From Aphanothece cf. minutissima CCALA 015 (lineage in GTDB: Bacteria > Cyanobacteriota > Cyanobacteriia > PCC-6307 > Cyanobiaceae): a stretch of DNA of 64,000 nt. Shown here piece after piece: positions 8,500 to 61,182 of the stretch. The notes beneath the pieces were generated by a model. It did no database searches and had not been told where the DNA came from. It saw only the letters and a list, made by a program, of their open reading frames with translations. The position numbers and the translations under genes were made by a program. Each line of letters opens with the position of its first letter. Position 1 is the first letter of the stretch. The DNA is taken from contig PVWP01000001.1 of assembly GCA_003003925.1 (NCBI GenBank), positions 479,876-543,875 on the forward strand, given 5' to 3'.

Positions 8500-8516
8500 C
8501 AGCGGCACTGTCAGCG

Positions 8517-23537: not shown

Positions 23538-25580
23538 ATGGCCGCCCTGTTCACCGTCGACCACGTCACCCAGGCCTTCCCCCTGCCCGGCGGGGGGGAG
23601 TACGTGGCCCTCAGGGACATCTTCCTGGATATCGCCGAGGGCGAGTTCATCTCCCTCATCGGCCACTCCGGCTGCGGCAAGTCCACCCTGCTCAACCTGC
23701 TGGCCGGCCTCACCACCGCCACCCAGGGCGGCATCCTGATGAGCGGCCGGCAGGTCACCGATCCGGGGCCCGACCGGATGGTGGTGTTCCAGAACTACTC
23801 GCTGCTGCCCTGGCTCACGGTGCGCCAGAACATCGCCCTGGGTGTGGACAACGTGATCACCGCCAGCGACCGCCGGGAGCGGGACGCCCTCATCGAGCAC
23901 CACATCCAGCTGGTGGGCCTGAAGGCCGCCGCCGACAAGTACCCCCGGGAGATCTCCGGCGGAATGAAGCAGCGGGTTGCCATCGCCCGCGCCCTGGCCC
24001 TGCGCCCGAAACTCCTCCTCCTCGATGAACCCTTCGGGGCCCTCGACGCGCTCACCCGGGGCAACCTGCAGGAGCAGCTGATGCGGATCTGCCAGGAGGC
24101 GAAGGTCACCGCCCTGATGGTCACCCACGACGTCGACGAGGCCCTGCTGCTCTCCGACCGGGTGGTGCTGATGACCAACGGCCCCGAGGCCCACATCGAT
24201 CAGATCCTCGAAGTGCCCCTGCCCCGGCCCCGCACCCAGCTGGGCACGGTGGAGCACCCGCGCTACTACGGGCTGCGGGCCGAGATCGTCGGCTTCCTCT
24301 CAGACCAGCGTCGGGCCCGGCAGCAGCGGCTCAAGCCCGCCGAGGCCATCGCCGCCGACGGACTCGAGAAGGTGAACCTGGAGCTGGGCTTCATTCCCCT
24401 CACCGACTGCCTGCCCCTGGTGGTGGCCCAGGAGAAGGGGTTCTTCGCCCGGCACGGCCTGACCCAGGTGCAGCTGCGGCGGGAGAGCAACTGGAAAACC
24501 CTCGAGACCCACGTGCGCCAGGGCGTTCTGGACGGTGCCCTGATGGTGGCGGGGATGCCGATCGCCATGACCCTCGGCTGCGGTGGCCAACCGCCCCTGG
24601 CGATGGTGAGTGCCCTCACCCTCAGCTGCAACGGCAATGCCATCACCCTGCACCGCCGCTTCCACGACGCCGGGGTGAACACCCTGGCCGACTTCAAGGC
24701 CTGGATCGGCGCCCACCCCGAGTCCAGGCCGGTGCTGGCCGTGGTGCACCCGGCCTCGATGCACAACCTGATGCTGCGGGCCTGGCTGGCCTCGGCGGGG
24801 ATCCACCCCGACCGTGACGTGGAACTGCTGGTGATCCCGCCGCCCCAGATGGTGGCCGCCCTCAAGGCGGGCACCATCGATGGCTACTGCGTCGGCGAAC
24901 CCTGGAACTCCCGCGCCGTCCAGGAGGGCCTCGGCACGGTGATCGCCACGGATGTGGAGCTGTGGAACGGCCACGGTGAGAAGGTGCTGGGGGTGAAGGA
25001 GGCCTGGGCGGCCGCCTACCCCCGCACCCACCGGGCCCTGGTGCAGGCCCTGCTGGAGGCCTGCCGTTACTGCGAGGACCCGGCCCACCGCGGCGACCTG
25101 GTGGAGCTGCTCTCCCAGAGCCAGTACGTGGGCACGGATGGGGCCATGCTCCGGCCTGGTCTCGTCGATGCCTACGACCGCGGCACCGGCGCGCCCGCCG
25201 CCATGCCGTCCTTCAACCGCTTCTACGGCCCCGAGGTCAACGAGCCCAACCCGGCGGAGGCGGTCTGGATCCTCTGCCAGCTCGGCCGCTGGGGCCTGGC
25301 CAGTTTCCCCAGCAACTGGCAGGAGGTGACCGAGCGCGCGCAGGATCGGGCCCTGTTCCGGAGCGCGGCCGCCGCCCTGGGGCTGCCGGCCGCCGAGCGC
25401 CCCCTGTCACCGGTGGCGGTGGTGTCGGCGTTCGATGGTGATCCTCTCGACCCGCTCAATCCCCTCGCCTACCTCGAACGCCTGCGCGTCAAGGGTCCGG
25501 TGACGGTGGCCCCGGCGCCCCTGCCGCCAGCGCCGGTGCGGGTCCCGGACCCCCCGCTGCCCGCCCCGGCCCGCCGCTGA
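23538..25580 (+). CDS. nrtC: nitrate ABC transporter ATPase with NrtA-like regulatory domain, NrtC
   Basis: 680 aa two-part protein unique to NrtABCD systems. Residues ~1-260 are an ABC ATPase with Walker A GHSGCGKS, signature EISGGMKQR and Walker B LLLLDEPFGALD. From ~280 to ~650 the sequence repeats the NrtA fold (LGFIPLTDCLPLVVAQEKG, VIPPPQMVAALKAG, GYCVGEPWN), the cytosolic domain that mediates ammonium-dependent inhibition of uptake in Synechococcus (family knowledge). The last ~30 residues are Pro/Ala-rich. Both parts are full length and in one frame. nrtD follows after 39 bases. Confidence 0.97.
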   Translation: MAALFTVDHVTQAFPLPGGGEYVALRDIFLDIAEGEFISLIGHSGCGKSTLLNLLAGLTTATQGGILMSGRQVTDPGPDRMVVFQNYSLLPWLTVRQNIALGVDNVITASDRRERDALIEHHIQLVGLKAAADKYPREISGGMKQRVAIARALALRPKLLLLDEPFGALDALTRGNLQEQLMRICQEAKVTALMVTHDVDEALLLSDRVVLMTNGPEAHIDQILEVPLPRPRTQLGTVEHPRYYGLRAEIVGFLSDQRRARQQRLKPAEAIAADGLEKVNLELGFIPLTDCLPLVVAQEKGFFARHGLTQVQLRRESNWKTLETHVRQGVLDGALMVAGMPIAMTLGCGGQPPLAMVSALTLSCNGNAITLHRRFHDAGVNTLADFKAWIGAHPESRPVLAVVHPASMHNLMLRAWLASAGIHPDRDVELLVIPPPQMVAALKAGTIDGYCVGEPWNSRAVQEGLGTVIATDVELWNGHGEKVLGVKEAWAAAYPRTHRALVQALLEACRYCEDPAHRGDLVELLSQSQYVGTDGAMLRPGLVDAYDRGTGAPAAMPSFNRFYGPEVNEPNPAEAVWILCQLGRWGLASFPSNWQEVTERAQDRALFRSAAAALGLPAAERPLSPVAVVSAFDGDPLDPLNPLAYLERLRVKGPVTVAPAPLPPAPVRVPDPPLPAPARR

Positions 25581-25619
25581 CGCCCCTTCCCCTCCTGTCC
25601 CTCCCCACGCTCCGATCGC

Positions 25620-26453
25620 ATGCAGACCCAGACGTTGCCCCAGCCCAGCACCGCCGGCGTCGCTGAACCGTTCCTGGTGATCGATGGGGTCAGCAAGGTG
25701 TATCCCACCCCCAACGGGCCCTACACCGTGCTCGACAACATCAGCCTGGAGGTGGCCGAAGGGGAGTTCGTCTGCGTGATCGGCCATTCCGGCTGCGGCA
25801 AATCCACCCTGCTCGACCTGGTCTCCGGCTTCGGCCAGCCCACCAGCGGTGAGGTGCGCCTGCAGTCGGTGCCGATCCGGGAGCCGGGGCCGGACCGGAT
25901 GGTGGTGTTCCAGAACTACTCGCTGCTGCCCTGGATGTCGGCCGCCGAGAACGTGGCCCTGGCGGTGAACAACGTGTTCCCCCATCTGCGGCGCAGCGGC
26001 GACACCGACCGGATCGTGGAGAGCCATCTGGCGATGGTGGGGCTGAGCGAGGCCGCCGACAAGCGTCCCGCCAGCCTGTCGGGGGGGATGAAGCAGCGGG
26101 TCTCGATCGCCCGGGCCCTGGCGCTGCAGCCCAAGGTGCTGATCCTCGATGAACCCTTCGGAGCCCTCGATCCGATCACCAAGGAGGAGCTGCAGGAGGA
26201 GCTGCTGCGGATCTGGAGGGAGCACCGGGTGACCGTCCTGATGATCACCCACTCGATCGATGAGGCCCTGTTCATGGCCGACCGCGTGGTGATGATGACC
26301 AACGGCCCGGCGGCGACCATCGGCGAGATCCTCGAGCTGCCCTTCCCCCGACCCCGCCAGCGGGCCCAGCTGATGGAGATGCCGGAGTACTACGACTACC
26401 GCAACTACGCCCTGGACTTCCTCTACCGCCGCTTCGCCCACGACGACCAGTGA
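25620..26453 (+). CDS. nrtD: nitrate ABC transporter ATPase NrtD
   Basis: Second ATPase of the heterodimeric NrtC/NrtD engine (277 aa), without the binding-protein-like extension of NrtC. Walker A GHSGCGKS, signature SLSGGMKQR, Walker B VLILDEPFGALD and switch histidine in VLMITHSIDEA are all present. The N-terminal ~15 residues (QTQTLPQPSTAGVAE) precede the ABC core. It is the last gene of the rightward nrtABCD operon and converges with narB, 29 bases away, across an inverted repeat that could terminate both. Confidence 0.96.
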   Translation: MQTQTLPQPSTAGVAEPFLVIDGVSKVYPTPNGPYTVLDNISLEVAEGEFVCVIGHSGCGKSTLLDLVSGFGQPTSGEVRLQSVPIREPGPDRMVVFQNYSLLPWMSAAENVALAVNNVFPHLRRSGDTDRIVESHLAMVGLSEAADKRPASLSGGMKQRVSIARALALQPKVLILDEPFGALDPITKEELQEELLRIWREHRVTVLMITHSIDEALFMADRVVMMTNGPAATIGEILELPFPRPRQRAQLMEMPEYYDYRNYALDFLYRRFAHDDQ

Positions 26454-47937: not shown

Positions 47938-48027
47938 CAGCGGACCACCACGATCTTGCTGATGCCAAACGTACCCAGGGCACGCCAGTCAGCTGTTCAC
48001 CAGGAACACTCTGTTGCAGAAGATGGG

Positions 48028-48056
48028 ATCAGCACTCTCACCCTCGGAGTGCTGAT
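48028..48056 (-). terminator. terminator-like hairpin downstream of the DAHP synthase gene
   Basis: ATCAGCACTC and GAGTGCTGAT form a perfect 10-bp stem with a 9-base loop, starting 29 bases after the aroG stop on the minus strand. The T-tract on that strand is poor (CCCATCTTC), so it may act as a weak terminator or an RNA-stabilising end. Confidence 0.4.
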
Positions 48057-48085
48057 TTCGGTGTTCTGGAGTTGGCCACAGCCCC

Positions 48086-49159
48086 TCAGGCGAGGGCCAG
48101 ACTGCGGGCCTGGGCCTGGCGCACGGCTTCCGCCAGCTCGACGAGCAGATCCAGGGTGGTGGCCAGATCGATGCAGGCATCGGTGATGCTCTGGCCGTAG
48201 GTGAGCGAGGCCAGGTCGGCGGAAATCTTCTGATTTCCTTCCACCAGATGGCTCTCCAGCATCACCCCCATCACGTGGACGGAACCGCCCCGCACCTGCT
48301 CGGCCACGCTGCGCAGCACCTCCCCCTGGCGGCGGTAGTCCTTGTTGGAGTTGCCATGGCTGCAGTCCACCATCAGCCGGGCCGGCAGGCCGTCCCGGGC
48401 CAGCAGGGCGGCGGCGGCCTCCACCGCCTCGGCGTGGAAGTTCGGGCCGCTCTTGCCCCCCCGCAGCACCAGGTGGCCGTCCGGGTTGCCGGTGGTGGAG
48501 ACGATGGCGGCCTGGCCCTCCTTGTTGATCCCCAGGAAATGGTGGGGCCGGGCGGCCGCCTCCATGGCGTTGATGGCGGTGGCGGCGCTGCCGTCGGTGC
48601 CGTTCTTGAAGCCGATCGGCATCGACAGGCCCGAGGCCATCTCCCGGTGGGTCTGGCTCTCGGTGGTGCGGGCGCCGATGGCGGTCCAGCTGATCAGGTC
48701 GGCGAGGTACTGAGGCACCACCGGGTCGAGCACCTCGGTGGCCGCCGGCAGGCCCAGCTCCGCCAGGTGCAGCAGCAGGGAACGGGCCCGGCGCAGGCCG
48801 GTGTTGATGTCGTAGCTGCCATCGAGGTGGGGATCGTTGATCATCCCCTTCCAGCCCACGGTGGTGCGGGGCTTCTCGAAGTAGACCCGCATCACGATCT
48901 CCAGCTCGTCCCGGTGGCGGCGCTGGGCCTGGGCGATCGCCTCGGCGTACTCCCGGGCGGCGGCCACGTCGTGGACCGAGCAGGGGCCGACGATCACCAG
49001 AAGCCGCTGGTCGCCGGCGTGCAGGATGGCCTTGATCCGCTCCCGGGCCTGCTGCACGGTGCGGGCCGCCTGATCGGAGAGGGGCAGCTCCCGGTGCAGC
49101 ACCGCCGGCGGCACCAGCGGCCGGGTTTCCACCACATGGAGATCGGAGGTGGGGATCAT
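48086..49159 (-). CDS. aroG: 3-deoxy-7-phosphoheptulonate synthase (DAHP synthase, type I)
   Basis: First step of the shikimate pathway: condenses phosphoenolpyruvate and erythrose 4-phosphate. 357 aa, of the AroF/G/H (type I-alpha) family: [71 protein letters not shown] and [16 protein letters not shown] are all present. Which aromatic amino acid inhibits it is not evident. It is divergent from acnB; 164 bases between them hold both promoters. The paralog letter (F, G or H) is not resolved by sequence; aroG is used as the generic name. Confidence 0.94.
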
Positions 49160-49323
49160 GCGGCCGACGGCGGGGAATGGTCAGACCCCCCAGCCTACGA
49201 ACTGGCCGCACCGATGCCAGCGCCGACTTCTGCAGCCGTCGTCACCAGAGGGCGGACCCGCGGGGAAGAACAATGGAAGCCATGCCCATGCCAACCGGGG
49301 GTCCGACCCGGTCATCCGTCCAT

Positions 49324-51966
49324 ATGTCCGTCTCCCCCAGCCCCGCTCCCCTGACCCCGGCCGAACTGCTGCCCAGCTACCGCGAGGCCGCCGCGGCCCG
49401 CGAAGCCCTCGGCGTGCCGCCCCTGCCGCTCACCGCCCCCCAGGCCCAGGCCCTCACCGAGCTGCTGGAGCAGCCGCCCGCCGGTGAGGAAGCTTTTCTG
49501 CTGCATCTGCTGAGCGAACGGATTCCGCCGGGGGTGGATGAGGCTGCCTATGTGAAGGCGGGCTGGCTGAGTGGGATCGCCAAGGGAACGGCCACCAGCC
49601 CCCTGGTGAGCCCCCTGGAGGCCACCCGGCTGCTGGCCACCATGATCGGCGGCTACAACGTCGGCGCCCTGATCGAGCTGCTCTCCTGCCCGGAGGCGGC
49701 CGTCGCCGAGGAGGCCGCCCGGGGGCTGAGCCGCACCCTGCTGGTGTACGACGCCTTCCACGACGTGCTGGAGCTGGCCGAGACCAACCCCCTGGCCCGC
49801 CAGGTGGTGGACAGCTGGGCGGCGGCGGAATGGTTCCACGCCCGGCCGCCCCTGCCGGAGGCGATCACCGTCACGGTGTTCAAGGTGACCGGGGAAACCA
49901 ACACCGACGACCTGTCGCCGGCCACCCACGCCACCACCCGCCCCGACATCCCCCTGCACGCGATGGCGATGCTGGAGACGCGGATGCCCGAAGGGCTCGG
50001 CCTGATCACCGAGCTGAAGGCCAAGGGCCATCCGCTGGCCTACGTGGGCGATGTGGTGGGCACGGGCAGCTCCCGCAAATCGGCGATCAACTCGGTGCTC
50101 TGGCACATCGGCACCGACATCCCCCACGTGCCCAACAAGCGCAGCGGCGGGGTGGTGCTCGGGGGCAAGATCGCGCCGATCTTCTTCAACACCGCCGAGG
50201 ATTCCGGCGCCCTGCCGATCGAGTGCGACGTCAGCGCCCTCAACAGCGGCGATGTGATCACGATCCGGCCCCACGCCGGCACGATCGAGCGGGCCGCCGG
50301 CGAACCGGGGGCCGGGGAGGTGCTGGCCCGCTTCGAGCTCAAGCCCAGCACCATCGCCGACGAGGTGCGGGCAGGCGGCCGCATCCCCCTGCTGATCGGC
50401 CGCTCCCTCACCGACAAGGTGCGGCTGCAGCTGGGCCTGCCCCCGTCGGAGGCCTTCATCCGGCCGGTGGCCCCGGTCGACACGGGCAAGGGCTTCACCC
50501 TGGCCCAGAAGATGGTGGGCAAGGCCTGCGGCCTGGCGGGGGTGCGCCCGGGCACCAGCTGCGAACCGCTGATGACCAGCGTCGGCAGCCAGGACACCAC
50601 CGGGCCGATGACCCGCGACGAGATGAAGGAGCTGGCCTGCCTGGGCTTCTCCGCCGATCTGGTGATGCAGAGCTTCTGCCACACCGCCGCCTACCCCAAG
50701 CCGGTGGATCTCAAGACCCACGCCGAGCTGCCCGACTTCATCAGCTCCCGGGGCGGCGTCGCCCTGCGGCCCGGCGACGGCATCATCCACAGCTGGCTCA
50801 ACCGCCTGCTGCTGCCGGACACGGTGGGCACCGGCGGTGACAGCCACACCCGCTTCCCGCTCGGCATCTCCTTCCCGGCCGGCTCCGGCCTGGTGGCTTT
50901 CGCCGCCGCCATCGGCGCCATGCCCCTCGACATGCCCGAGTCGGTGCTGGTGCGCTTCTCCGGCTCCCTGCAGCCGGGCGTCACCCTGCGGGACGTGGTG
51001 AACGCCATCCCCTACGTGGCCATCCAGCAGGGCCTGCTGACGGTGGAGAAGGCCGGCAAGAAGAACATCTTCAGCGGCCGGATCATGGAGATCGAGGGGC
51101 TCCCCGACCTGAAGCTGGAGCAGGCGTTTGAACTGACGGACGCCACCGCCGAACGCTCCTGCGCCGGCAGCACGATCAAGCTGAGCGTCGAGACGGTGAG
51201 CGAGTACCTGCGCAGCAATGTGGCGCTGATGCGCAACATGATCGCCCGGGGCTACAGCGATGCCCGCACCCTGGCGCGGCGGATCAAGGCGATGGAGGCC
51301 TGGCTGGCCGATCCGGTGCTGATGGAGGCCGATGCCGATGCCGAGTATGCGGCGGTGATCGACATCAACCTGGACGAGCTGAGCGAACCGATCCTGGCCT
51401 GCCCGAACGATCCCGACAACGTCAAGCTGCTGAGCGAGGTGGCGGGCGACCGGATCGATGAGGTGTTCATCGGCTCCTGCATGACCAACATCGGCCACTA
51501 CCGCGCCGCCGCCACGGTGCTGGACGGGGCCGGCACCAGCGCTGCACGGCTGTGGGTCTGCCCACCCACCCGCATGGACGACGAGATGCTGCGGGCCGAG
51601 GGCTACACCGCCAAGTTCGAGACCGCCGGCGCCCGCATGGAGCTGCCCGGCTGCTCCCTCTGCATGGGCAACCAGGCCCGGGTGGAGGACAACACCACCG
51701 TGTTCTCCACCAGCACCCGCAATTTCAACAACCGCCTCGGCAACGGCGCCCAGGTGTACCTGGGCAGCGCCGAACTGGCGGCGGTGTGCGCCCTGCTGGG
51801 CCGCATTCCCAGCCCGGCCGAGTACCTGGAGATCGCGGCGGCCAAGATCGATCCCCTCTCCGACCAGCTCTACCGCTACCTCAACTTCGACCAGATCGAT
51901 GGCTTTGAGGATGTGGGCCGCGTGGTGAGCGTGGAGGAGGAAGAGAAGGTGCTGGCGGAGGTGTAG
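49324..51966 (+). CDS. acnB: bifunctional aconitate hydratase B / 2-methylisocitrate dehydratase
   Basis: Tricarboxylic-acid-cycle aconitase of the AcnB type (880 aa), interconverting citrate and isocitrate with a [4Fe-4S] cluster. The N-terminal HEAT-like domain ([26 protein letters not shown]), the swivel domain ([27 protein letters not shown]) and the cluster domains with [14 protein letters not shown] and GCSLCMGNQ cysteines are in AcnB order. The ATG at 49324 gives the family start; the frame opens further upstream with low-complexity residues. The last 184 bases (51783-51966) recur in diverged form at 54251-54434, flanking an inserted gene pair. Confidence 0.96.
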
Positions 51967-52088
51967 GGGGGCAAGGCCGGCCCTGCAGCCGATGACTGGC
52001 GAGCCGGCCGGAGCCAAAGCGGGCTTGCAGACGTCCGATCAATCCATGGCTTCCATCGGGCTGGAACGCTGTTTGTGGAGGCGACCGG

Positions 52089-52838
52089 TTACCAGGCGAG
52101 AGCGATCGGGCCTCCAAACTTACGCATTTCTGCAAAGAACTTGCCCTGAGGGCCGCCCTCCAGAAGGGTGGCCAGATAGACGGCGACTTCCGCACCCTCA
52201 TCGGCTGTGAAGGGCGCACCAGAGCCACCCATATCAGTCTGCATCCAGCCAGGGGAGTAAGCATTCACCAAGATATTGGTGCCGTTTAGCTCCTTTGCCC
52301 ACAACACTGTCAGGGCATTCAGACCAGCTTTCGAAAGGCGATAAGAAGGAGCTAATGGATAGAAATCACTCCCCATCGACGTGAGGGATGCCATCTCAGT
52401 AGACACATTGACGATTCGACCATAGTTTTGGGCTTTCATTAATGGCAGCAATGCCTGGGTGATACGCGCTACTGCCAAGACATTGGTTGTCAATGTATCC
52501 AGCATTGTATCAACCTTCACCGAAAGCAGGCTGGCTTCCTCGGGTTTCGCAGAGGGATTAACGCCTGCATTGTTGACTAGAATATCGACCCTGCCATAGG
52601 CTTGCTGTATCCAGGCGGTAAACTGTTGGACGCTGGCATCACTGGTGACATCCAGAGGGTGAAAGCCCACGTGACAATTTTCAGAAGCTAGCCGCTGTCG
52701 AGCGTCCATCCCATCCTGCTCCTGGCGACTCGTGACAACAACTTGAATGTTCTCGACTTGCGCTAACTTGCGAGCGATCGCATAACCCAGCCCCTTGTGA
52801 CTGCCCGTGATTACAGCAACTTTCTGCGTCATGGCCAT
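52089..52838 (-). CDS. SDR-family oxidoreductase, probably horizontally acquired
   Basis: Short-chain dehydrogenase/reductase of 249 aa, NADP(H)- or NAD(H)-dependent. The coenzyme motif TGSHKGLG, the structural NNAG (LVNNAGVNPSAK) and catalytic YRLSK with its upstream Ser (VNVSTEMAS) are present. The C-terminal AYSPGWMQTDMGG is typical of carbonyl-reductase-like SDRs that act on small aldehydes or ketones. Base composition is visibly AT-richer and codon use differs from the flanking genes; a GCGATCGC (HIP1) octamer lies inside. It is divergent from the LysR gene, its probable regulator. Part of the insert between the two acnB-tail copies. Confidence 0.92.
   Translation of the reverse strand: MAMTQKVAVITGSHKGLGYAIARKLAQVENIQVVVTSRQEQDGMDARQRLASENCHVGFHPLDVTSDASVQQFTAWIQQAYGRVDILVNNAGVNPSAKPEEASLLSVKVDTMLDTLTTNVLAVARITQALLPLMKAQNYGRIVNVSTEMASLTSMGSDFYPLAPSYRLSKAGLNALTVLWAKELNGTNILVNAYSPGWMQTDMGGSGAPFTADEGAEVAVYLATLLEGGPQGKFFAEMRKFGGPIALAW
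52774..52781. repeat. HIP1 octamer GCGATCGC in the SDR gene
   Basis: GCGATCGC, the highly iterated palindrome of many cyanobacterial genomes. One of two copies within ~0.9 kb of the AT-richer insert. Confidence 0.7.
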
Positions 52839-52903
52839 CAGATCCCTTGATTAGCATGGATTCTGAGCCAACCTAACAAGCGCTATCCTTTTTACGAAGT
52901 CAA

Positions 52904-52918
52904 TCTTTTAGATAAAGA
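52904..52918 (+). promoter_or_regulatory. LysR-type dyad in the SDR-lysR intergenic region
   Basis: TCTTTTAGATAAAGA is a 5-bp inverted repeat (TCTTT/AAAGA) that contains two T-N11-A matches. It lies 6 bases before the LysR start in an 86-base divergent region. A TTGACT hexamer on the SDR strand (52898-52903) is next to it, so binding could repress lysR and control the SDR gene. Confidence 0.45.
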
Positions 52919-52924
52919 CTATCA

Positions 52925-53881
52925 ATGAAATCGATAAGCTTGGCTGCGATCGACTTGAACTTGTTGGTTGCCTTTGAAGCCCTTCTTGACCAGCGCAGCG
53001 TTACGAAGGCCGCCGAGCAGCTTCAGATTGGTCAGCCTGCGATGAGTGCTGCACTCAGTCGTCTGCGTCTTCTGTTTGAAGATGAGCTGTTTGTGCGGTT
53101 GGGACGGCAGATGCAGCCAACACTCAAAGCCCAAGCCATCGCACCAAGCCTATTGGCCGCATTGCAGCAGATTCGCCAGACTATCACCGCCAGCCAGACC
53201 TTTGATCCACCTTCGAGCGACCGCACATTTGCCATCGGCAGTTCGGATTACACCAGCTTTGTGCTGGTGCCACAGCTGCTGGAGTTAAGACAGAAAGCAG
53301 CTCCATCCATTAACTTTCGAATGATTGGATTTGAGAAGGACAGCGTCGGAGATCTGCTGGAACAAGGGGAAATTGATGTGGCGGTGGGTGTTTTCCCCGA
53401 TCCGCCGCGAAAAACAAAATGGGAGCCTATCTTTGAAGAACGATTTGTGGGAATCGCCCGTCAAGGGCATCCTGCGCTTCAGCAAGGGATGATAAGTGTA
53501 GAAGTCTTTGCCCAGCTTTCCCACGCGCTCACAACTCTTCGTCGAGACTCTACAGGTGCCCTCGACAAGGCGTTGAATGAGAATGGTTTAGAGCGCCAGA
53601 TTGCCTTCACAACTCCGCATATGATGGTGTTGCCATTTGCGATCGCATCGAGCGATTTGGTCGCAGCACTTCCCCAACGCATTGCCCTTCGTTTAGCATC
53701 TGTCTGCGATTTAACGGTTTTTGAGCTGCCAATCAGAACAAAACCGTGGACGGTTTCAATGCTATGGAGCACTTTAAGTGATCAAGATGAAGCCAATCGC
53801 TGGTTGCGCGACGCAATTAAAGCAATTGCTCAACAGATTTGGGCAAGTACTGACATAGGTTGTGTCCCTACCAAGTACTGA
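52925..53881 (+). CDS. LysR-family transcriptional regulator, probably horizontally acquired
   Basis: DNA-binding regulator of 318 aa. The N-terminal winged helix-turn-helix is clear (LDLNLLVAFEALLDQRSVTKAAEQL-type; LNLLVAFEALLDQRSVT then AAEQLQIGQPAMSAALSRLR), followed by a periplasmic-binding-protein-like effector domain (DRTFAIGSSDYTSFVLVPQL, GEIDVAVGVFPDPP). Overall it is close to the NodD/PcpR-like LysR group that regulates an adjacent divergent oxidoreductase. Base composition is AT-rich for this genome and a HIP1 octamer is at 53639-53646. Upstream dyad suggests autoregulation. Effector unknown. Confidence 0.94.
   Translation: MKSISLAAIDLNLLVAFEALLDQRSVTKAAEQLQIGQPAMSAALSRLRLLFEDELFVRLGRQMQPTLKAQAIAPSLLAALQQIRQTITASQTFDPPSSDRTFAIGSSDYTSFVLVPQLLELRQKAAPSINFRMIGFEKDSVGDLLEQGEIDVAVGVFPDPPRKTKWEPIFEERFVGIARQGHPALQQGMISVEVFAQLSHALTTLRRDSTGALDKALNENGLERQIAFTTPHMMVLPFAIASSDLVAALPQRIALRLASVCDLTVFELPIRTKPWTVSMLWSTLSDQDEANRWLRDAIKAIAQQIWASTDIGCVPTKY
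53639..53646. repeat. HIP1 octamer GCGATCGC in the LysR gene
   Basis: Second copy of GCGATCGC in the insert. Confidence 0.7.
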
Positions 53882-54250
53882 GCCGCATCACGCTGCCGCC
53901 GAGTGGCAGGCAGGGAGTCCAACTCTTGATGACGGTATCTTCTCGACTTTTCGACTCAAGGGGTCTCCTCTGTGGCTTGCCACTTGACCCAAGCGGAAGG
54001 GTGGCCTCCATCACGGTGTCCTTCTGAGCGGTGTCCTTCCCGTCCAGAGGGATGAGGACACGATCACCGGCCCAGGAGAACACCGTCATGGGTTGGGCAG
54101 CGGAGGTCGCCCAATCCTGCATCAGCAGGCCGATGTCCACGGCAGGCTGTATGGAGTTGGGCTGGGACACTCCGGTGCACATAGGTCCTCCAGCGCCTCC
54201 ACGACTGAACTCTCCCAGAACTGTTGATCTTTCGGCAAACTTCAGCCGAA
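53882..54250. other. intergenic spacer of the insert, possible gene remnant
   Basis: 369 bases between the LysR stop and the acnB-tail copy, of intermediate composition. On the minus strand a protein-like stretch runs from ~54214 to ~53880 (segments PAVDIGLLMQDWATSAAQPM and FSWAGDRVLIPLDGKDTAQK), but it has no credible start because upstream it runs antisense through the acnB-tail copy. It may be the 3' part of a truncated gene. Not recognised. Confidence 0.35.
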
Positions 54251-54434
54251 GGTGTGCGCCCTGCTGGGCCGCATCCCCAGCCCGGCCGAGTACCTGGAGA
54301 TCGTGGCCGCCAACATCGACCCCCTCTCCGACCAGCTCTACCGCTACCTCAACTTCGACCAGATCGATGGCTTCGAGGATGCCGGCCGCGTGGTGAGCGT
54401 GGAGGAGGAGGCGAAGGTGCTGGCGTAGGTTTAG
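54251..54434 (+). pseudogene. second, diverged copy of the acnB 3' end
   Basis: Aligns without gaps over 184 bases to the end of acnB (51783-51966) with 12 differences by my count, about 93% identity. It encodes [16 protein letters not shown] onwards to EEEAKVLA and stops at TAG 54426-54428, two codons earlier than the intact gene. Several of the differences are synonymous third-position changes, so this looks like a homologous allele tail and not a recent copy. There is no acnB sequence upstream of 54251. The remnant and the intact gene bracket the SDR-LysR insert. Confidence 0.9.
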
Positions 54435-54492
54435 GGGCCGCAATGATGGAGAGCCGTGAGTCACGGCTCGATCCTTCGCCGTAGCCGGGGGC

Positions 54493-55236
54493 TCAGCCCC
54501 CCACCACCAGGGCGTCGACAATCTCGTAGCGCTCGAAGTTCTCGCCAAGCAGCAGCACCGACAAATCGCCGCGCCGCTGCACGGTGAGCTTCTCGGGCTG
54601 ATCGGAAGCGACAGCCTTGCCCTTCACGAACAGGAACTGGCGCTTCTGGCCCTCGGGGGTGGTGACCACCACCGTGGCGCTGCTGTTGGCCCGGCGGATC
54701 ACGGAAGCCTTGCACCTGGTGGCCTTGCCGCTGCTCCCGGAGCCACAGGGCACCTCCGCGGAGGCGTGGTACGGCGTGCCTGGGATCAGGGCGTCACGGG
54801 ATGCGGGCACGGGGGCGAGGGGAGCACCATTGATCCCCACCTTGAGGCTGTAGGTGCTGGATTCGTTGCGGCGCGCCGCCGGCCGCATCAGATACACCCT
54901 CACCCTGACGTCGCCATCGCTTGGCAAGGGTCCACGGAAGCGATTGCCGGAGCTGCTGCCGATGAACAGGGCGGTGTCGGTCCCGGCCGCCATCACGTTG
55001 AAGTAGTTCTGTGGGTTGGAACCCTTGAGTTCCACGCTCAGGGTCTGACCGGCACCGGCCCGCAGTTTGTAATCGATGGTCTGGTCGCCCTTGAGCTGGC
55101 CCTTCAGCAGGGTGGAATCAGCTCCGGCTCGAAACGTGACCCTCTGACTCTCGATCGCCGTCCGGGCCAGTCCGACTCCAGCCGGGAGGCTGATGGCCAC
55201 AAGGCCAGCGGCTGCGAAGGCGAGTGGTGTACGCAT
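54493..55236 (-). CDS. secreted protein with lysozyme-inhibitor (PliG/PliI)-like domain
   Basis: 247 aa protein with an N-terminal signal peptide (RTPLAFAAAGLVAISLPAGV, cleavage after ~GLA) and a beta-rich mature part. Residues ~30-130 (GQLKGDQTIDYKLRAGAGQ, SVELKGSNPQNYFNVMAAG, DVRVRVYLMRPAARRNE, STYSLKVGI) resemble the g-type lysozyme inhibitor / 'DNA breaking-rejoining' family common in proteobacteria. The C-terminal part (~155-245) has two cysteines (VPCGSG, TRCKAS) and ends FERYEIVDALVVGG. The ATG at 55236 places the hydrophobic core correctly; the frame also opens at 55257. Periplasmic. Role could be lysozyme defence, but only fold-level similarity supports it. Confidence 0.62.
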   Translation of the reverse strand: MRTPLAFAAAGLVAISLPAGVGLARTAIESQRVTFRAGADSTLLKGQLKGDQTIDYKLRAGAGQTLSVELKGSNPQNYFNVMAAGTDTALFIGSSSGNRFRGPLPSDGDVRVRVYLMRPAARRNESSTYSLKVGINGAPLAPVPASRDALIPGTPYHASAEVPCGSGSSGKATRCKASVIRRANSSATVVVTTPEGQKRQFLFVKGKAVASDQPEKLTVQRRGDLSVLLLGENFERYEIVDALVVGG

Positions 55237-55442
55237 TGGGCCATTGCTCGGGGCCAATCCATACCCTATCTCTCTGGCTCTAGAGACTGTTTCTTACCGC
55301 CTGTGGAATAACTGGATGGGCAGTTCCGATTTGTTGAGAAAAGTGGGATGAACTCGTGAGCTAACGCTGCCCCCGAGTTACAGGGAGATAGCATAGGGAA
55401 AGGGTGAAAAGCTGGAGGTGGCCTGTCAACTCAAAAGGCATA
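55237..55442. other. 206-base AT-richer intergenic region, nothing recognised
   Basis: Lies between the lysozyme-inhibitor-like gene and the HNH gene, both leftward. Composition is markedly lower in GC than the core genome. No ORF, tRNA-like fold or clear terminator seen; it presumably holds the promoter of the secreted-protein gene. Confidence 0.3.
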
Positions 55443-55907
55443 TTAGGCACTATCTGGACAACCAATTCTGGGTGAACCTGTATTCATGCCACCAGAATAG
55501 GCTGCACCAGCGCCAATCGTTACAGCTGCAACGAGCCTCGCACCATTCGCATATCCAGCTTGTGTGCCATCCCGATTTCGTGCATGGTACGATCCACCTT
55601 TTAGTATTTCGATTCTGCCGGCATTTGCCCCTCCCCGAGTTGTTGCATTCTGCGCATCACAGTTGGGACATAAGAGCCTCAGATTCTCGGTCCTGTTATC
55701 CCTTGCATTGCCAGATATATGGTCCAGAATCAGCCCTAGCGGTTGTCCATTCCAGACCAGAGGATTTGCATTAAATTGGCACTGCTGGTTGTCGCAGCGT
55801 TCAAGTAGGCCGCGTGAGCGTCTCCATTCAAGGTAATGGCGGCGCACTGTGCTTCGGTTTGGCTTGTCCTCCGACATTCGGAGCACCTCTTCAGCTGAAC
55901 GTTTCAT
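55443..55907 (-). CDS. HNH endonuclease domain protein
   Basis: Predicted small nuclease of 154 aa. The HNH zinc fold is visible: first Cys pair in RCDNQQCQF, the catalytic region LILDHISGNARDNRTENLRL (His and Asn) and the second pair in CPNCDAQ. The N-terminus KPNRSTVRRHYLEWRR is helical and basic. The C-terminal ~45 residues are Gly/Ala-rich (AAVTIGAGAAYSGGM), an odd tail for this family. An AAGGAGGTG ribosome-binding site at 55912-55920 on the minus strand lies 4 bases before the ATG, supporting a real gene. AT-richer than the core; likely a mobile-element or phage-derived orphan. Confidence 0.85.
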   Translation of the reverse strand: MKRSAEEVLRMSEDKPNRSTVRRHYLEWRRSRGLLERCDNQQCQFNANPLVWNGQPLGLILDHISGNARDNRTENLRLLCPNCDAQNATTRGGANAGRIEILKGGSYHARNRDGTQAGYANGARLVAAVTIGAGAAYSGGMNTGSPRIGCPDSA

Positions 55908-55911
55908 GGAG

Positions 55912-55920
55912 CACCTCCTT
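55912..55920 (-). promoter_or_regulatory. strong Shine-Dalgarno of the HNH gene
   Basis: AAGGAGGTG on the minus strand, 4 bases from the ATG at 55907; it supports the start and the reality of the HNH gene. Confidence 0.75.
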
Positions 55921-56215
55921 CATTGATGCCTAACACTTCTTAGGCGGAACCATCTAAGTCCCAAACTTTCAGCCTTGGGAAGCATAAAAGCGAGTTGCCC
56001 TGAGGGCAACACAACCCCGTCGACCTAGGCAGACCCGTCGAAACACCCTGCTGCCGCAGTGGCCCAACTTGGCCATCCATTGACACTCCATCCAAGGACT
56101 GGTTGCACCCCATCTCGCCGCATTGGGGCAGATTGAGACGGACCAGCTTGAGCGCGAAGCTTCCACCAGCGTCACTCTGAATCGCTGAACCTCTGGCGCC
56201 CGCTGGCTTGGCCGA
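55921..56215. other. intergenic region without a gene
   Basis: About 300 bases between the HNH gene and the HEPN gene. Apart from a terminator-like hairpin (55994-56010) and a 5-bp repeat (CCTAA/TTAGG, 55928-55943) I see nothing. A 68-codon open frame on the minus strand (55969-56175) has no homology-like features and no ribosome-binding site. Confidence 0.4.
55994..56010 (-). terminator. leftward terminator-like hairpin after the HEPN-MNT pair
   Basis: GTTGCCC and GGGCAAC pair perfectly around TGA. On the minus strand the stem is followed by TCGCTTTTATG, a short T-rich tract, so it could end transcription of the HEPN-MNT operon ~206 bases after its last stop. Confidence 0.4.
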
Positions 56216-56587
56216 TCAACCGAGCCCCGCCACAGCCCGCTCGCAGCGTTCCAGTTCGGCCTCCAGCAGGGTCAGCAGCACCGATCGCTCGGCCGGCAGC
56301 GGGAAGGGGCCTGCCTCGTAGCGGGCCTCCACGGCGAACTCCTGCAGCGCCGCCAGCCGGGGCTCCAGAACCTGTCCCGCCACAGCGGCCAGGTCGCTCA
56401 GCTCATGCACCCGTGGTGGCCGGCGATCGCTCAGCACGATCCAGGCCTTGAGCAGCTTCTCCACCACCTGCTGGGCGGTGAAGCCCCAGTCCTCCTCCGG
56501 ATACGCAGGGTCCAGTCCGATCCGCAAGGTCCTCAGATGGCGGCGCACGATCGCCAGCAGCAGGGCCGCGTCCTCAGCCGGCGACAT
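56216..56587 (-). CDS. HEPN domain protein (toxin-like partner of MNT)
   Basis: All-helical HEPN protein of 123 aa. Characteristic parts are DWGFTAQQVVEKLLKAWIVL (the helix that packs in the dimer), RRPPRVHELSDLAAVAG and the terminal ARYEAGPFPLP (the 'ARYP' block of MNT-associated HEPN). The RX4HXY RNase motif of classical HepT is not seen at the C-terminus; an R-x4-H (RPPRVH) occurs mid-protein. The start is the ATG at 56587, 14 bases inside the MNT gene, so the two are translationally coupled. In this family the HEPN protein is the toxin and the MNT its antitoxin; here that is inferred. Confidence 0.8.
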   Translation of the reverse strand: MSPAEDAALLLAIVRRHLRTLRIGLDPAYPEEDWGFTAQQVVEKLLKAWIVLSDRRPPRVHELSDLAAVAGQVLEPRLAALQEFAVEARYEAGPFPLPAERSVLLTLLEAELERCERAVAGLG

Positions 56588-56993
56588 AGAGCACCTTCCC
56601 CTCGCAGGCCACATCGCCGAACACGTGCCAGCGGGAGCCACTCAACCGTTCCGCGTCGGCGGCACCGGCCAGCACCAGGTCCACCCTGACGCCGAGGGGC
56701 CCGAGGGCCGCTCGAAAGCGCTGCCAGCAGGCGGCTTTCTCGGCGGGGGTGAGCTGGAGGCGGTCCACGATCACGGCCAGGTCCAGGTCCGAATCGGGGC
56801 GCGCCTCGCCCCGGGCCCGCGATCCGAACACCAGCACCGCCCTCACATCGGCGTCGGCACAGAGCCGTGCCAGGGCCAGGGCACAGGCCTCCGGATCCAG
56901 GCCGGGGCCGAGATCCGGCAGCGCCGCCAGCCCCCTGGGCTCACGCCAGGGAATCGCGGGCGGTACGAACGGCTGTGCGAAGGCGGAAACCAT
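56574..56993 (-). CDS. MNT-type nucleotidyltransferase (antitoxin-like partner of HEPN)
   Basis: Minimal nucleotidyltransferase of 139 aa with the pol-beta signature VLVFGSRARGEARPDSDLDL (GS-x10-D-x-D) at residues ~54-73, so the metal-binding aspartates are intact. MNT antitoxins of the MntA type inactivate their HEPN partner by adenylylation. The ~45 residues before the catalytic motif are Pro/Leu-rich with LARLCADADV. It overlaps the HEPN gene by 14 bases. Located in the accessory stretch between the HNH gene and the core antiporter gene. Confidence 0.85.
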   Translation of the reverse strand: MVSAFAQPFVPPAIPWREPRGLAALPDLGPGLDPEACALALARLCADADVRAVLVFGSRARGEARPDSDLDLAVIVDRLQLTPAEKAACWQRFRAALGPLGVRVDLVLAGAADAERLSGSRWHVFGDVACEGKVLYVAG

Positions 56994-57064
56994 GGCAAAA
57001 CGCTACCGCCGCTGACCCCAAGGGCCTATCGGCGTGACTCACACCAGCCAGGCCTGCCGTCCTT

Positions 57065-58156
57065 CTAGTCGCCGCCCTGAACGGCCAGGAGCTTGCGCTG
57101 CTGCTTCCAGCGCAGCACCTGCCAGACCAGGAACACCATCAGCAGCGGCAGCACCGCCACCAGCACCACGAACCGGTAGGTGTTGTCGACGATCTCGCCG
57201 CCGGCGGTGGAGGCCAGGACCTGCTCCACCAGATAGAGCCCATAGAGACCCAGCAGAATCCAGCCCTCAAGGCGGGAGATCACCCCGTTGGTCCAGAAGA
57301 TCGGCAGGCAGGCCAGGGTGGTGGCCACCATGATCGGCAGATCGCGGTTAATCATCACCGGATCCACCGCCAGCCCCTTGCCGCCGGCCACCACGGCGCA
57401 GAGCCCCAGGATCACGATCTGGTTGAGCAGGTTGCTGCCCACCACGTTGCCGATGGCCAGGTCGGCCTTGCCCCGGTAGGCGGCCACGACGGAGGTGACC
57501 AGCTCGGGCATGGAGGTGCCGGCCGCCACGATCGTCAGGCCGATCACCGTCTGGCTCACCCCCAGGGCCACGGCGGCCGTGGTGGCCCCGCGCACCAGCA
57601 GCTGGGAGCCGACCACCAGCAGGGCCAGGCCCGCCGCCAGCTTGAAGGCGGCCACCAGCGGTGTGGCCCGCTCGTTCTCGTTGTCGTCGTCCTCCTCGGA
57701 ATCCTCCGAGGCGGTGCGGATCTCCCAGACCAGATTGGCCACCGTCGCGAACAGCAGCGCCACCCCGGCCTGCCAGGTGAGCCGGCCCCCCGAGGCCATG
57801 CCCCACACGGCCATCGAGACACCCAGCAGCAGCGGCACGTCCCGGCGCACCAGGCGGCTCCTGACGCGCAGGGGAACGATCGCCGCGCTGGCGCCCAGCA
57901 CCACCAGGATGTTGAAGATGTTGCTGCCCACCACGTTGCTGACCGCCAGGTCCGCATCCCCCTGAATGGTGGACAGCACGCTCACGAACAGCTCCGGCGT
58001 ACTGGTGCCCAAAGACACCACCGTCAGGCCGATCACCAGCTGGGGGATGCCCAGCAGCAGGGACAGGGCGACCGAACCGGCCACGAACAGTTCCCCGCCG
58101 CCGAACAGCACCAGGATCCCGAGGATGATCTCGACGAAACTGGGCAGGGTGGGCAT
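57065..58156 (-). CDS. calcium/sodium antiporter (CaCA family, YrbG-like)
   Basis: Inner-membrane cation exchanger of 363 aa with ten or so helices and two inverted alpha repeats: GTSTPELFVSVLS with SNVVGSNIFNILVVLG in the first half, GTSMPELVTSVVA with GNVVGSNLLNQIVILG in the second. A central acidic cytoplasmic loop (EDSEEDDDNENER) may sense cations. The open frame extends to 58303, but the ATG at 58156 matches the family start just before TM1. Resumes core-type composition after the accessory region. Divergent from the radical SAM gene. Confidence 0.93.
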   Translation of the reverse strand: MPTLPSFVEIILGILVLFGGGELFVAGSVALSLLLGIPQLVIGLTVVSLGTSTPELFVSVLSTIQGDADLAVSNVVGSNIFNILVVLGASAAIVPLRVRSRLVRRDVPLLLGVSMAVWGMASGGRLTWQAGVALLFATVANLVWEIRTASEDSEEDDDNENERATPLVAAFKLAAGLALLVVGSQLLVRGATTAAVALGVSQTVIGLTIVAAGTSMPELVTSVVAAYRGKADLAIGNVVGSNLLNQIVILGLCAVVAGGKGLAVDPVMINRDLPIMVATTLACLPIFWTNGVISRLEGWILLGLYGLYLVEQVLASTAGGEIVDNTYRFVVLVAVLPLLMVFLVWQVLRWKQQRKLLAVQGGD

Positions 58157-58244
58157 GGTGGCCTGTCGGATAGCGCGTGAGTTTAGGGAGGCGCCAGCCC
58201 GCCACCGGAAGTGACACGCTGGATCTCCCCGTCCCACCGCCCCC

Positions 58245-59918
58245 CTGAACCAGGAAACGCTGCTGTTTGAGCCGGCCCGGCCGGCCGCCGATGCCCTGCG
58301 CACCGTGCTGGCCTTCCCGAGCAGCTATTCGGTGGGGATCACCAGCCTGGGCTACCAGGTGGTGTGGGCCAGCCTGGCGCGCCGCAGCGACCTCGACGTG
58401 CGGCGGCTGTTCACCGACCAGGGGGACCCACCGCACCGCCATTGCGACCTGTTCGGCCTGTCGCTCAGCTGGGAGCTGGACGGACCGGTGCTGCTCGACC
58501 TGCTGGAGCAGCAGGGCATCCCCCTCTGGAGTCACCAGCGGGGAGAGGACGACCCGATCGTGTTCGGCGGTGGCCCGGTGCTCACCGCCAACCCGGAGCC
58601 CCTGGCCCCCTTCTTCGATGTGGTGCTGCTGGGCGACGGTGAACTGCTGCTGCCCGCCTTCATCGACGCGCTCCAGGCGGCTCGCGCCCTGCCCCGGCCC
58701 GAACGCCTGCGGCAGCTGGCCCGGGTTCCCGGGGTCTACGTGCCGGCGCTCTACGCACCCCGCTACGACAGCGATGGCACCCTGCTCGGGGTGGAGCCCA
58801 CCACCGCCGAGGTGCCGGCCACCATCGCCAAGCAGACCTGGCGCGGCAACACCCTCAGCCATTCCACGGTGATCACACCGGAGGCGGCCTGGCCCTCGAT
58901 CCACATGGTGGAGGTGGCCCGCAGCTGCCCGGAACTCTGCCGCTTCTGCCTGGCCAGCTACCTCACCCTGCCGTTCCGCACCGCCTCCCTCGACGACGGC
59001 CTGATCCCGGCGGTGGAGACGGGGCTGGCGGTGACCCAGCGGCTCGGCCTGCTGGGGGCCTCGGTGACCCAGCACCCCCAGTTCGCCGACCTGCTCACCT
59101 GGCTCGATCAGGACCGTTTCGAGGGCACCCGGGTCAGCGTCAGCTCGGTGCGGGCCGCCACGGTGACCCCCCAGCTGGGGCGGATCCTGGCCCGGCGGGG
59201 CAGCAAATCACTGACGATCGCGATTGAAAGCGGCAGCGAACGGATGCGCCGGGTGGTCAACAAGAAGCTGGCCGGCGAGGAGATCTTCGCGGCGGCCCGC
59301 TACGCGAAGGAAGGGGGCCTCAGCGGCCTGAAGCTCTACGGCATGGCGGGCCTGCCCAGCGAGGAGGAGGCCGACATCGAGGCCACCGCCGACCTGCTGC
59401 TGGCCCTCAGGAAGGCCACCCCGGGCCTGCGGCTGAGCCTCGGGGTGAGCACCTTCGTGCCCAAGGCCCACACCCCCTTCCAGTGGGAAGGGGTGCGGCC
59501 GGAGGCGGAGAAGCGCCTGCAGCGGCTGGCCCGGCGCCTGCAGCCCAAGGGGATCGAGCTGCGCCCCGAGAGCTACGGCTGGAGCGTGATCCAGGCCCTG
59601 CTCTCCCGCAGCGACCGGCGCCTGGCGCCGGTGATCGCCGCGGCCCGCGGCCGCCACGACAGCCAGGGCGGCTGGAAGACGGCCTACCGGGCGGTGCGGG
59701 CCGGGGAGGCAACGGCCCCCGCCGACCTGCCGGTCCCCCTGCCGGCGCCGCCCCCCTGGGAGGAGGTGGTCCACGCCACCTGGGACGAGGAGCGGGTGCT
59801 GCCCTGGACCCATCTGGAGGGTCCCCTGCCGCCCGCCACCCTGCTCAGGCATCGGCAGGAGGCGCTGGCCGGCGATAGCAGCGCAGACCCGCCAGCAGCA
59901 CCCACCCCGCCACATTGA
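58245..59918 (+). CDS. radical SAM protein with N-terminal B12-binding-like domain
   Basis: Radical S-adenosylmethionine enzyme of ~557 aa. The cluster motif CPELCRFC (C-x3-C-x2-C) is at nucleotides ~58927-58950, after an N-terminal Rossmann-type part (FPSSYSVGITSLGYQVVWAS, GLSLSWELDG, VFGGGPVLTANPEP). IAIESGSERMRRVVNKKL and KLYGMAGLPSEEEADIE are Elp3/MiaB-like barrel segments. The conserved N-terminus begins upstream of the first canonical codon (GTG 58305), and the only candidates before the in-frame stop at 58212 are CTGs, of which 58245 is used here. Its 3' end overlaps the convergent O-antigen-ligase-like gene by 74 bases. Substrate unknown. Confidence 0.88.
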   Translation: MNQETLLFEPARPAADALRTVLAFPSSYSVGITSLGYQVVWASLARRSDLDVRRLFTDQGDPPHRHCDLFGLSLSWELDGPVLLDLLEQQGIPLWSHQRGEDDPIVFGGGPVLTANPEPLAPFFDVVLLGDGELLLPAFIDALQAARALPRPERLRQLARVPGVYVPALYAPRYDSDGTLLGVEPTTAEVPATIAKQTWRGNTLSHSTVITPEAAWPSIHMVEVARSCPELCRFCLASYLTLPFRTASLDDGLIPAVETGLAVTQRLGLLGASVTQHPQFADLLTWLDQDRFEGTRVSVSSVRAATVTPQLGRILARRGSKSLTIAIESGSERMRRVVNKKLAGEEIFAAARYAKEGGLSGLKLYGMAGLPSEEEADIEATADLLLALRKATPGLRLSLGVSTFVPKAHTPFQWEGVRPEAEKRLQRLARRLQPKGIELRPESYGWSVIQALLSRSDRRLAPVIAAARGRHDSQGGWKTAYRAVRAGEATAPADLPVPLPAPPPWEEVVHATWDEERVLPWTHLEGPLPPATLLRHRQEALAGDSSADPPAAPTPPH

Positions 59919-61182
59919 CCCGGCTGTCATAAAGGGGGATGTCGGTGGCGTGCAGGGCCACCAGCACCAGGGCCGCGGCCCACCAGGCCCGGTCGAACAG
60001 GGCCCCGCCGGCCATGCCCAGCCGCCCGGCCCGGAGCAGCAGCCACAGCACCAGGCCCACCACCAGGACGGCGACCGGCACCCCGTGGCTCATCGCCAGA
60101 TCGATCGGGAGGTTGTGGGGGTGGCCGTGCCAGAAGCCGGTGCGCATCGGATAGATGATGCTGAAGGCGGCCGCCCCCCAGCCCAGCCAGGGCCGTTCGG
60201 CGATCAGCCCCAGGGCCACCTGCCACTGGGCCAGGCGGGTGATCGCCAGGGGCCGCTGGCCGCCGTGCTCGAGGTCGATCAGCCGGCCCCAGATCGCCTC
60301 GGGCACCACCTGCCGGGCCAGTTCCTGCGGGGCCGCCGGCACCCAGGGCAGGGTGGACAGGCCGATCACCGCCAGCACCACCAGCAGCACCGGCAGCAGC
60401 CACAGCCAGCTGCCGGGCCCGGCCACCACGGGCACCGCCAGCATCAGGGCCCCCCAGGCATTGCGAGAATCGGTGAGGAACACCGCCGCCACCAGGCCGG
60501 CGGCGATCACCAGCACCACCCCCCGGCGGCGCCAGCCGAGGCCCCCCTCCAGCAGGGCCGCCAGGGTCAGGGGCCAGGCCAGCACCAGCCAGGCGCCGGC
60601 GATGTTGGCGTAGTCGAACAGCCCGGCCAGCCGCTCCGGCGGATTGCCGCCGGCCTTGATGTGCCAGATGATCAGGCCCCCCAGCCACTGGAAGGGTCCG
60701 CTCCAGCCCCACCAGATCTGGCCCAGGCCGGTGAGGATCACCGGCACCGTGCCGGCCACCACCGCCAGGGCCACCCGGCGGCGGGCGGCGGGGGTGCCCA
60801 GATACACCTGGAAGCCCCAGAACCCCCAGAAGAAGGGCAGCCAGTTGCCGAGCCCCAGCCAGGCCAGGTCATTGCTGGCGGCCCGGAAGCAGCCCAGCAC
60901 CATCAGCACCGCCGCCGCCAGGAGCACCACGTTGGCCCGGTCGGCCAGCACCGGGCGGCGGTGGCGGCTGCCCAGGATCAGGGCCAGCAGCAGGGCCAGA
61001 CCCGCCAGAAAGGCACTGCTGGCCAGCAGGACCATCCCCAGCTGGAAGCAGCGCCAGCCCAGGGGCGTGGCGGCGGCCGGCTTGGGCGCCATCAGGCGCT
61101 CGTCGAGGGCGGAAAAACGGATCACCGGAGCGGTGGCGGCAGCGGAGGACCGACGGCGGGTCCCGGGAGACGGCTCAATCAA
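59845..61182 (-). CDS. O-antigen ligase family membrane protein (Wzy/IctB-like)
   Basis: Polytopic membrane protein of 445 aa with about twelve hydrophobic helices and the large periplasmic loop of the Wzy_C family (around LARQVVPEAIWGRLIDLEHGG, RPWLGWGAAAFSIIYP and FWHGHPHNLPIDLAMSHG, the H-x-x-x-HN signature). Relatives ligate polysaccharide to lipid A; one cyanobacterial branch was named IctB for a supposed role in inorganic carbon accumulation. Which applies here is not decidable. The start at 61182 overlaps the purU stop by 8 bases, suggesting co-transcription; the end overlaps the radical SAM gene. Confidence 0.85.
   Translation of the reverse strand: MIEPSPGTRRRSSAAATAPVIRFSALDERLMAPKPAAATPLGWRCFQLGMVLLASSAFLAGLALLLALILGSRHRRPVLADRANVVLLAAAVLMVLGCFRAASNDLAWLGLGNWLPFFWGFWGFQVYLGTPAARRRVALAVVAGTVPVILTGLGQIWWGWSGPFQWLGGLIIWHIKAGGNPPERLAGLFDYANIAGAWLVLAWPLTLAALLEGGLGWRRRGVVLVIAAGLVAAVFLTDSRNAWGALMLAVPVVAGPGSWLWLLPVLLVVLAVIGLSTLPWVPAAPQELARQVVPEAIWGRLIDLEHGGQRPLAITRLAQWQVALGLIAERPWLGWGAAAFSIIYPMRTGFWHGHPHNLPIDLAMSHGVPVAVLVVGLVLWLLLRAGRLGMAGGALFDRAWWAAALVLVALHATDIPLYDSRVNVAGWVLLAGLRCYRRPAPPADA

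Follow-up and report, generated by a model that had tools for sequence, protein, structure and literature searches.

What leaves two ends of the same aconitase gene on either side of foreign-looking DNA in a cyanobacterial genome? The question is raised by a stretch of 64,000 nucleotides from Aphanothece cf. minutissima CCALA 015 (the window; its own genome is G000 and relatives carry G numbers), in which an intact acnB, a short-chain dehydrogenase/reductase (SDR) gene, a divergent LysR gene and a spacer are followed by a second, damaged acnB 3′ end. We followed the locus, which a model-written first-pass annotation had singled out from the sequence, through 42 genomes of the genus, 201 of the family and 386 of the phylum, using 15 close relatives for comparisons of the acnB end and its flank. 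The structure reads best as two alleles of a single hypervariable slot, between acnB and a radical SAM gene (rad), that were fused head to tail, an interpretation to which we assign a probability of about 0.6.

The intact gene encodes bifunctional aconitate hydratase 2 (49177–51966, plus strand; TIGR00117, 1517 bits), and its last 184 nucleotides (nt; 51783–51966) recur ungapped on the same strand at 54251–54434 with 12 differences, exactly as the first-pass annotation had reported. A repeat search of the window recovered the pair as 187 nt, 94% alike, the second longest direct repeat of at least 60 nt after one of 279 nt (77% alike); its left edge may be slightly blurred, as GCCGAA stands directly before the remnant and 8 bases further off in acnB. 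The differences fall on third (8), second (3) and first (1) codon positions. Among the compared codons, 7 differences are synonymous, in keeping with the several already noted, and 4 change an amino acid; in addition, GAG has become an in-frame TAG in the remnant, two codons ahead of the stop. Divergence of this order rules out a fresh duplication or a target-site duplication, both of which had been argued against from the start.

Between the two ends lie a GC-rich stretch (51967–52088) that matches other slots at chance level only, the SDR gene (52089–52838, minus strand; PF00106, 141.7 bits), the LysR-family regulator divergent to it (52925–53881, plus strand; PF00126 and PF03466) and the spacer. 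The cargo had been described as AT-richer than the core, and GC content is indeed 0.53 in the SDR gene, 0.38 in the gap before lysR, 0.51 in lysR and 0.60 in the spacer, against 0.70 in acnB. Both genes look functional, because their frames are open and the ratio of non-synonymous to synonymous substitution rates is low against orthologues in other cyanobacteria (about 0.09 against three for SDR, 0.08–0.12 against four for LysR). Neither is a recombinase, and the closest PDB relatives of the SDR are isopiperitenone, menthone and carbonyl reductases. Within the genus the pair occurs in the window's own genome alone (1/42), and across the family only pieces of 28–51 bases were found outside that genome; as a single alignment, at 73–81%, it appeared in 4 of the 386 phylum genomes, all from other families. 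Judged by this distribution, the cargo is foreign, as the first-pass annotation had held.

The stretch from acnB to rad (58305–59918, plus strand; PF19864 and PF04055), its right border, is a hypervariable slot in the genus. The two genes share a contig in 24 of the 42 genomes, with 198 to 6338 bases between them; the longest interval is that of the window. Comparison of the 200 bases past the acnB stop in the close relatives and behind both acnB ends of the window gave 8 kinds of flank by single linkage, or 10 without two short links of 33 and 29 nt. One kind was common to G004, G006, G042, G043 and G048, another to G008 and G012, and a third to G024, G044 and the remnant; the flank behind the intact acnB was shared with none of the 15 relatives. 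Beyond the remnant, after 58 bases, comes g254 (54493–55257, minus strand), a gene of unknown family, and relatives with a single acnB straight before this gene, which the first-pass annotation had proposed to look for, do exist: in G024 the two are separated by 60 bases and in G044 by fewer than 100. The remnant side of the window agrees with G024 at 76% over the 71-nt junction, 88.5% over 192 nt past the stop and 91.9% in g254. The arrangement on the remnant side of the window is still carried in uninterrupted form by a relative.

When the 12 differences were polarised among the close relatives, five proved peculiar to the remnant and two to the intact copy, two adjacent ones were shared by the intact copy and G008, one by the remnant and G043, and two were polymorphic in the clade. 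Measured against the clade's common state, the remnant is altered at three amino acids, at one of them in common with G043, and carries a stop; at bases 132–133 it retains the common bases, where the intact copy has a derived codon found otherwise only in G008. Synonymous differences number 7 between the two tails, 4 between the remnant and G022 or G013, and 5 between the intact tail and G008, G022 or G013, and the intact tail is closest to G008 in all (5 differences). On these counts the tails resemble a pair of alleles from the same clade, of which one, the remnant, is decaying.

Whether all relatives carry the same structure had been posed as a measure of its age; the same kind of scar recurs in four further genomes, with different cargo. 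A second acnB end behind acnB was found in 5 of the 42 genus genomes (G000, G010, G011, G015 and G021), and by their junctions these represent four events: one each in G000, G010 and G021, and a rad/acnB join common to G011, G015 and G021. The second tails begin about 184, 540, 154 and 65 bases ahead of the acnB stop, respectively, and show no constant crossover point. In G010 the remnant, which has an internal gap, lies behind genes for a methyltransferase and a hexapeptide-repeat protein, and in G021 behind 9.1 kb coding for SnoaL-like, alpha-amylase and GH15 proteins and two proteins without a family, a cargo that appears partly sugar-active. In the fourth event the first 333 bases of rad are joined to about the last 65 of acnB, with a DnaJ-domain gene before and a carboxylesterase gene after, and at most about 3 bases, counted by eye, are shared at the join. 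Uninterrupted relatives are known for three of the four events: besides G024 for the window, the G010 remnant with its downstream sequence matches the slot of G023 at 92.5% (335 nt), and that of G021 matches G015, G011 and G052 at 89.4%, 87.4% and 86.9%. Analogous fusions are seen in G010, in G021 and at the join common to G011, G015 and G021.

The G021 locus is spread over two contigs, C31 and C20, which overlap by 129 identical bases. If these are adjacent, the order is acnB, the 9.1 kb, the 154-base tail, the J region, the 333-base rad prefix, the 65-base tail, the esterase gene and rad, so that two layers of acnB tail are stacked in one slot and acnB lies about 12.6 kb from rad. In two further candidates, G051 and G056, the apparent second tail arose where contigs overlap at their ends (137 bases at 99.3% and 290 bases at 98.6%), and neither genome was counted. 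A family-wide search with the acnB tail, scored at no more than three places per genome, such that more tails may exist, matched 144 of the 201 genomes, and beyond the genus it gave at least one second 40-base piece behind acnB (G176) and at least one at a contig edge (G134). The former, at G176:C16:127080–127119 in another genus, lies about 1.1 kb behind acnB.

In the fusion proposed here, allele 1 would comprise acnB, the SDR–LysR pair and the spacer with a degenerate attC site (the recombination site of integrons), and allele 2 an acnB end, g254, an attC site and an HNH cassette. On one side, acnB would have been the region of homology at which incoming DNA paired with the resident; on the opposite side the two would have been joined with little or no homology, that is, illegitimately, and one version of the slot would have been added to the other rather than replacing it, probably after DNA uptake. 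This matches homology-facilitated illegitimate recombination in part: the two acnB ends provide the homologous anchor, and the far side may lack homology, to judge by the rad/acnB join, where at most about three bases are shared. Integron activity would be a separate process, not needed for the duplication of the acnB tail and probably not its maker.

A short repeat in the spacer after lysR led us to the attC sites. A covariance model (R1), built from 23 sites outside the slots, formed 97.3% of its pair cells, and none of 500 shuffles reached either that value or its covariation score. In the window it found a strong site at 55358–55449 (minus strand; 42.7 bits, E 3e-9) and a weak one at 53884–53979 (minus strand; 15.6 bits, E 0.059 in 64 kb or 0.0049 in 5.2 kb), which also has short matches to attC sites elsewhere. 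The remaining spacer (53980–54250) contains a still weaker attC-like match (54108–54163, 13.4 bits); it has no Pfam family, and its open reading frame gave no Pfam match. Between the SDR gene and acnB no attC site was matched even with filters off, and the degenerate site behind lysR sits on the other strand. The window's genome has 18 sites at E up to 0.1, and the 42 genus genomes have 1 to 62 each. Of their 42 acnB loci, 10 contain sites, 18 in total and every one behind acnB, with four each in G041 and G045 and three in G009; once the window's two are included, all 20 slot sites lie on the strand opposite acnB. In G002, G009 and G003 the site starts within about 10 bases past the acnB stop.

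The strong site closes the 3′ end of an HNH endonuclease-like gene (55443–55907, minus strand; PF13392) present in 1 of the 42 genomes, and 55358–55907 reads as a complete integron gene cassette. In a comparison of 10 genomes upstream of g254, 8 remain similar as far as a single point, placed by eye, beyond which they diverge. There, at the core beside g254, G000, G008, G024 and G004 enter different attC sites by the model, G042 enters a TAAC without a model match, and G012, G044 and G048 share an attC-less neighbour. Around 55361 the g254 side is 58–88% alike among the eight, and the outer side 48–60%, against 47–52% for shuffles, the exception being G012, G044 and G048, whose outer sides are 77–91% alike. 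Slot content in these genomes thus changes at a fixed attC core beside g254, and since insertion at the core gives such a pattern, we infer an integron integrase as the agent of cassette insertion.

Such an enzyme scored above the profile cut-off of 265 bits in 28 of the 42 genus genomes and in none of 14 controls. The window's genome has it on another contig (G000:C14; 455 bits, 312 residues without a stop), and in G022, G008, G013, G004, G044 and G048 intI lies about 46–50 kb from acnB. Within the slot itself, G041 retains intI residues 134–312, 66% identical to the IntI of the window's genome and with a stop, at G041:C9:51349–51798 by the profile (about 8275–8799 of the fetched locus), on the same strand as its four attC sites and beyond them as seen from acnB; among the other fetched slots that IntI had no match at 1e-3. 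Half an intI inside the slot beside attC sites indicates, on this sequence evidence, that the slot housed an integron in the past, in G041 at the least. The integrase acting on the slot may have belonged to such a former integron, to which the G041 fragment points, or may be encoded at another place in the genome. More tentatively, and we would call this doubtful as a whole, the slot may have begun as an integron and lost its own integrase, half of which is kept in G041, and may now have cassettes swapped at a one-base-precise core by an integrase from elsewhere while whole slot versions are stacked additively, leaving acnB ends as scars. In that case the order in which cargo arrived at this single locus could be read from the scars.

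Several observations weigh against this account of the locus. None of the 42 genus genomes offers a separate allele with acnB followed by the SDR–LysR pair, so that neither the donor allele nor, more generally, a donor of anchor plus cargo was seen, and in no relative does the esterase gene follow acnB directly, which leaves the fourth event without an uninterrupted form. In approximately unbiased (AU) tests, sister tails were rejected neither in G000 (p 0.33) nor in G021 (p 0.118), and in G010 the two tails are sisters (support 95/89), as local duplication would also give. The clade is a mosaic along acnB by sliding identity, and no import breakpoint could be drawn. As to the integron sites, two covariation counts of the model do not exceed those of shuffles, 275 of 500 having as many pairs changed on both sides and 403 of 500 as many pair types; the attC site of allele 1 is degenerate, the 20 like-oriented sites are not 20 independent events, and two of the ten genomes compared upstream of g254 (G043 and G006) change earlier and not at the attC core.

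The fusion has a direction, and the first-pass annotation had chosen one: acnB and its cargo came from another strain by homologous recombination, with the remnant representing what is left of the resident acnB. Part of this stands, namely that the tails look like two alleles and not like a recent copy, and that G024 has the uninterrupted acnB–g254 allele; the direction does not find support. It had been expected that the remnant would group with the host and the intact acnB with another lineage. In our trees, the tail-less acnB clusters first with G022 and G002 and next with G008 and G006, rad clusters with G022 and G008, and DAHP synthase falls in a polytomous group with G022, G006, G008 and G002. 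Because the acnB and rad trees both group with G022 and G008 (acnB also with G002 and G006), the intact acnB follows the host lineage in these trees, although DNA from another member of that close lineage would look alike and would still fit the topology. The remnant falls, in a tree of 43 acnB tails, within the single fork that most of the window's clade forms; 184 bases are too few to place it, and either tail may be the newcomer. The breakpoint search proposed along acnB ended in the mosaic described above, and import of acnB from another lineage drew no support from sliding identity or from trees. An imported acnB is accordingly a doubtful version of the fusion.

The first-pass annotation's alternative, an old duplication followed by drift, is somewhat less well placed. 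Here the acnB end would have been duplicated within the genome long ago, by tandem duplication or template switch, when the insert arrived, and the spare would have drifted as a pseudogene. The sister-tail comparison proposed to settle the matter leaves room for it through the AU result for G000 and the sister tails of G010, and the rad-prefix/acnB-tail join is shaped like a tandem-duplication junction. Under simple descent, however, the codon at 132–133, shared by the intact copy and G008 only, makes the copy older than the split from G008, and G008 has no second tail; transfer of the codon by recombination would be another way to account for it. Synonymous differences are also fewer between remnant and G022 (4) than between remnant and intact tail (7), though these are small numbers, and the G021 remnant agrees better with G020 (89.4% over 151 bases) and G015 (90.4% over 135) than with the intact tail of its own genome (86.1% over 151). 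We therefore consider internal duplication rather unlikely.

Far less probable is site-specific integration at the acnB 3′ end by an element bringing a replacement end. The precedent is icd of Escherichia coli, where e14 and phage 21 integrate and bring a replacement 3′ end; as there, the 3′ end of a metabolic gene stands twice, diverged, around inserted DNA, the second tail resembles the icd case in length, divergence and position, and the scar recurs at one gene. Unlike the icd case, the tails at acnB start at different points, and no integrase was found, as the first-pass annotation had also stated: none of the tested proteins from the inserts belonged to a recombinase family (the window's SDR, LysR and HNH proteins, two of G010, five of G021, two of G011 including the esterase, and three of G015), a set in which two G021 proteins have no family and which did not include small frames, and G021 had no match to the integron integrase profile. 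That the integron integrase itself made the tails, by moving a piece with an acnB end, is the least credible of all: attC sites do occur in the slot and come close to the acnB stop in G002, G003 and G009, but no GTT or AAC core lies within 10 bases of the start of the G000 remnant, and the slots of G010, G011, G015 and G021 have no attC match at E up to 1.

Elsewhere in the slot, a HEPN-domain gene adjoins a nucleotidyltransferase gene (56216–56993, minus strand; PF05168 and PF18765), which we take to be the make-up of a HEPN-MNT toxin-antitoxin pair; the region has partial matches only, in the slots of some relatives. A search of 48000–60000 with Rfam gave four matches, every one below the gathering score, and a sub-threshold match to a CRISPR repeat family at 59605–59637 (minus strand), within rad, is probably due to chance. 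Further off in the window, repeats about 2.1 kb apart and 77–83% alike (23617–26357) lie in what appear from the sequence to be tandem ATP-binding transporter genes, and a diverged pair about 10 kb apart, 76–85% alike, occupies 10223–10421 and 20220–20418.

Hypervariable slots between core genes are common; the addition of cargo without loss of the old is rarely visible. At acnB the ends of a conserved gene mark the layers in five genomes, and uninterrupted relatives are known for three of the four events, so that the order of the layers becomes readable. Integron cassettes moreover change at a fixed place in picocyanobacteria without an adjacent intact integrase. Integrons in Cyanobacteria are mentioned in one study (PMC9668308) and as an attC class in another (PMC12444791), and PMC3108266 names a Synechococcus among its integrons; among the papers listed by literature searches there was no study devoted to picocyanobacterial integrons and nothing specific on acnB as an insertion site. 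The separate parts are known, and their combination at acnB was, as far as we could find, not described before.

Among known systems, clusters of attC sites lacking an integron integrase (CALINs) at conserved positions, described for Xanthomonas in PMC12444791, resemble the slot in having attC sites in one orientation at a conserved position, with no intact integrase beside them and intI elsewhere in the genome. Unlike these, several acnB slots have a single attC site, G041 retains half of intI, and the joining of whole alleles with duplicated acnB ends is a further route by which the slot grows. Insertion of cassettes at attG sites (Loot et al. 2024, as cited in PMC12444791) likewise places cassettes at a chromosomal position away from the integron; at the acnB slot, by contrast, an empty site was not found, and we favour a former integron because of the intI fragment in G041. 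The closest published case found is the stacking of immunity genes in type VI secretion system arrays of Vibrio cholerae (PMC5361080), in which displaced 3′ ends remain, layers stack and a process similar to homology-facilitated illegitimate recombination was proposed. There, as here, modules enter one conserved place, and the displaced gene leaves behind its 3′ end and the gene next to it; the acnB slot differs from those arrays in that its anchor is a housekeeping enzyme gene, its cargo is unrelated, and it takes in integron cassettes as well.

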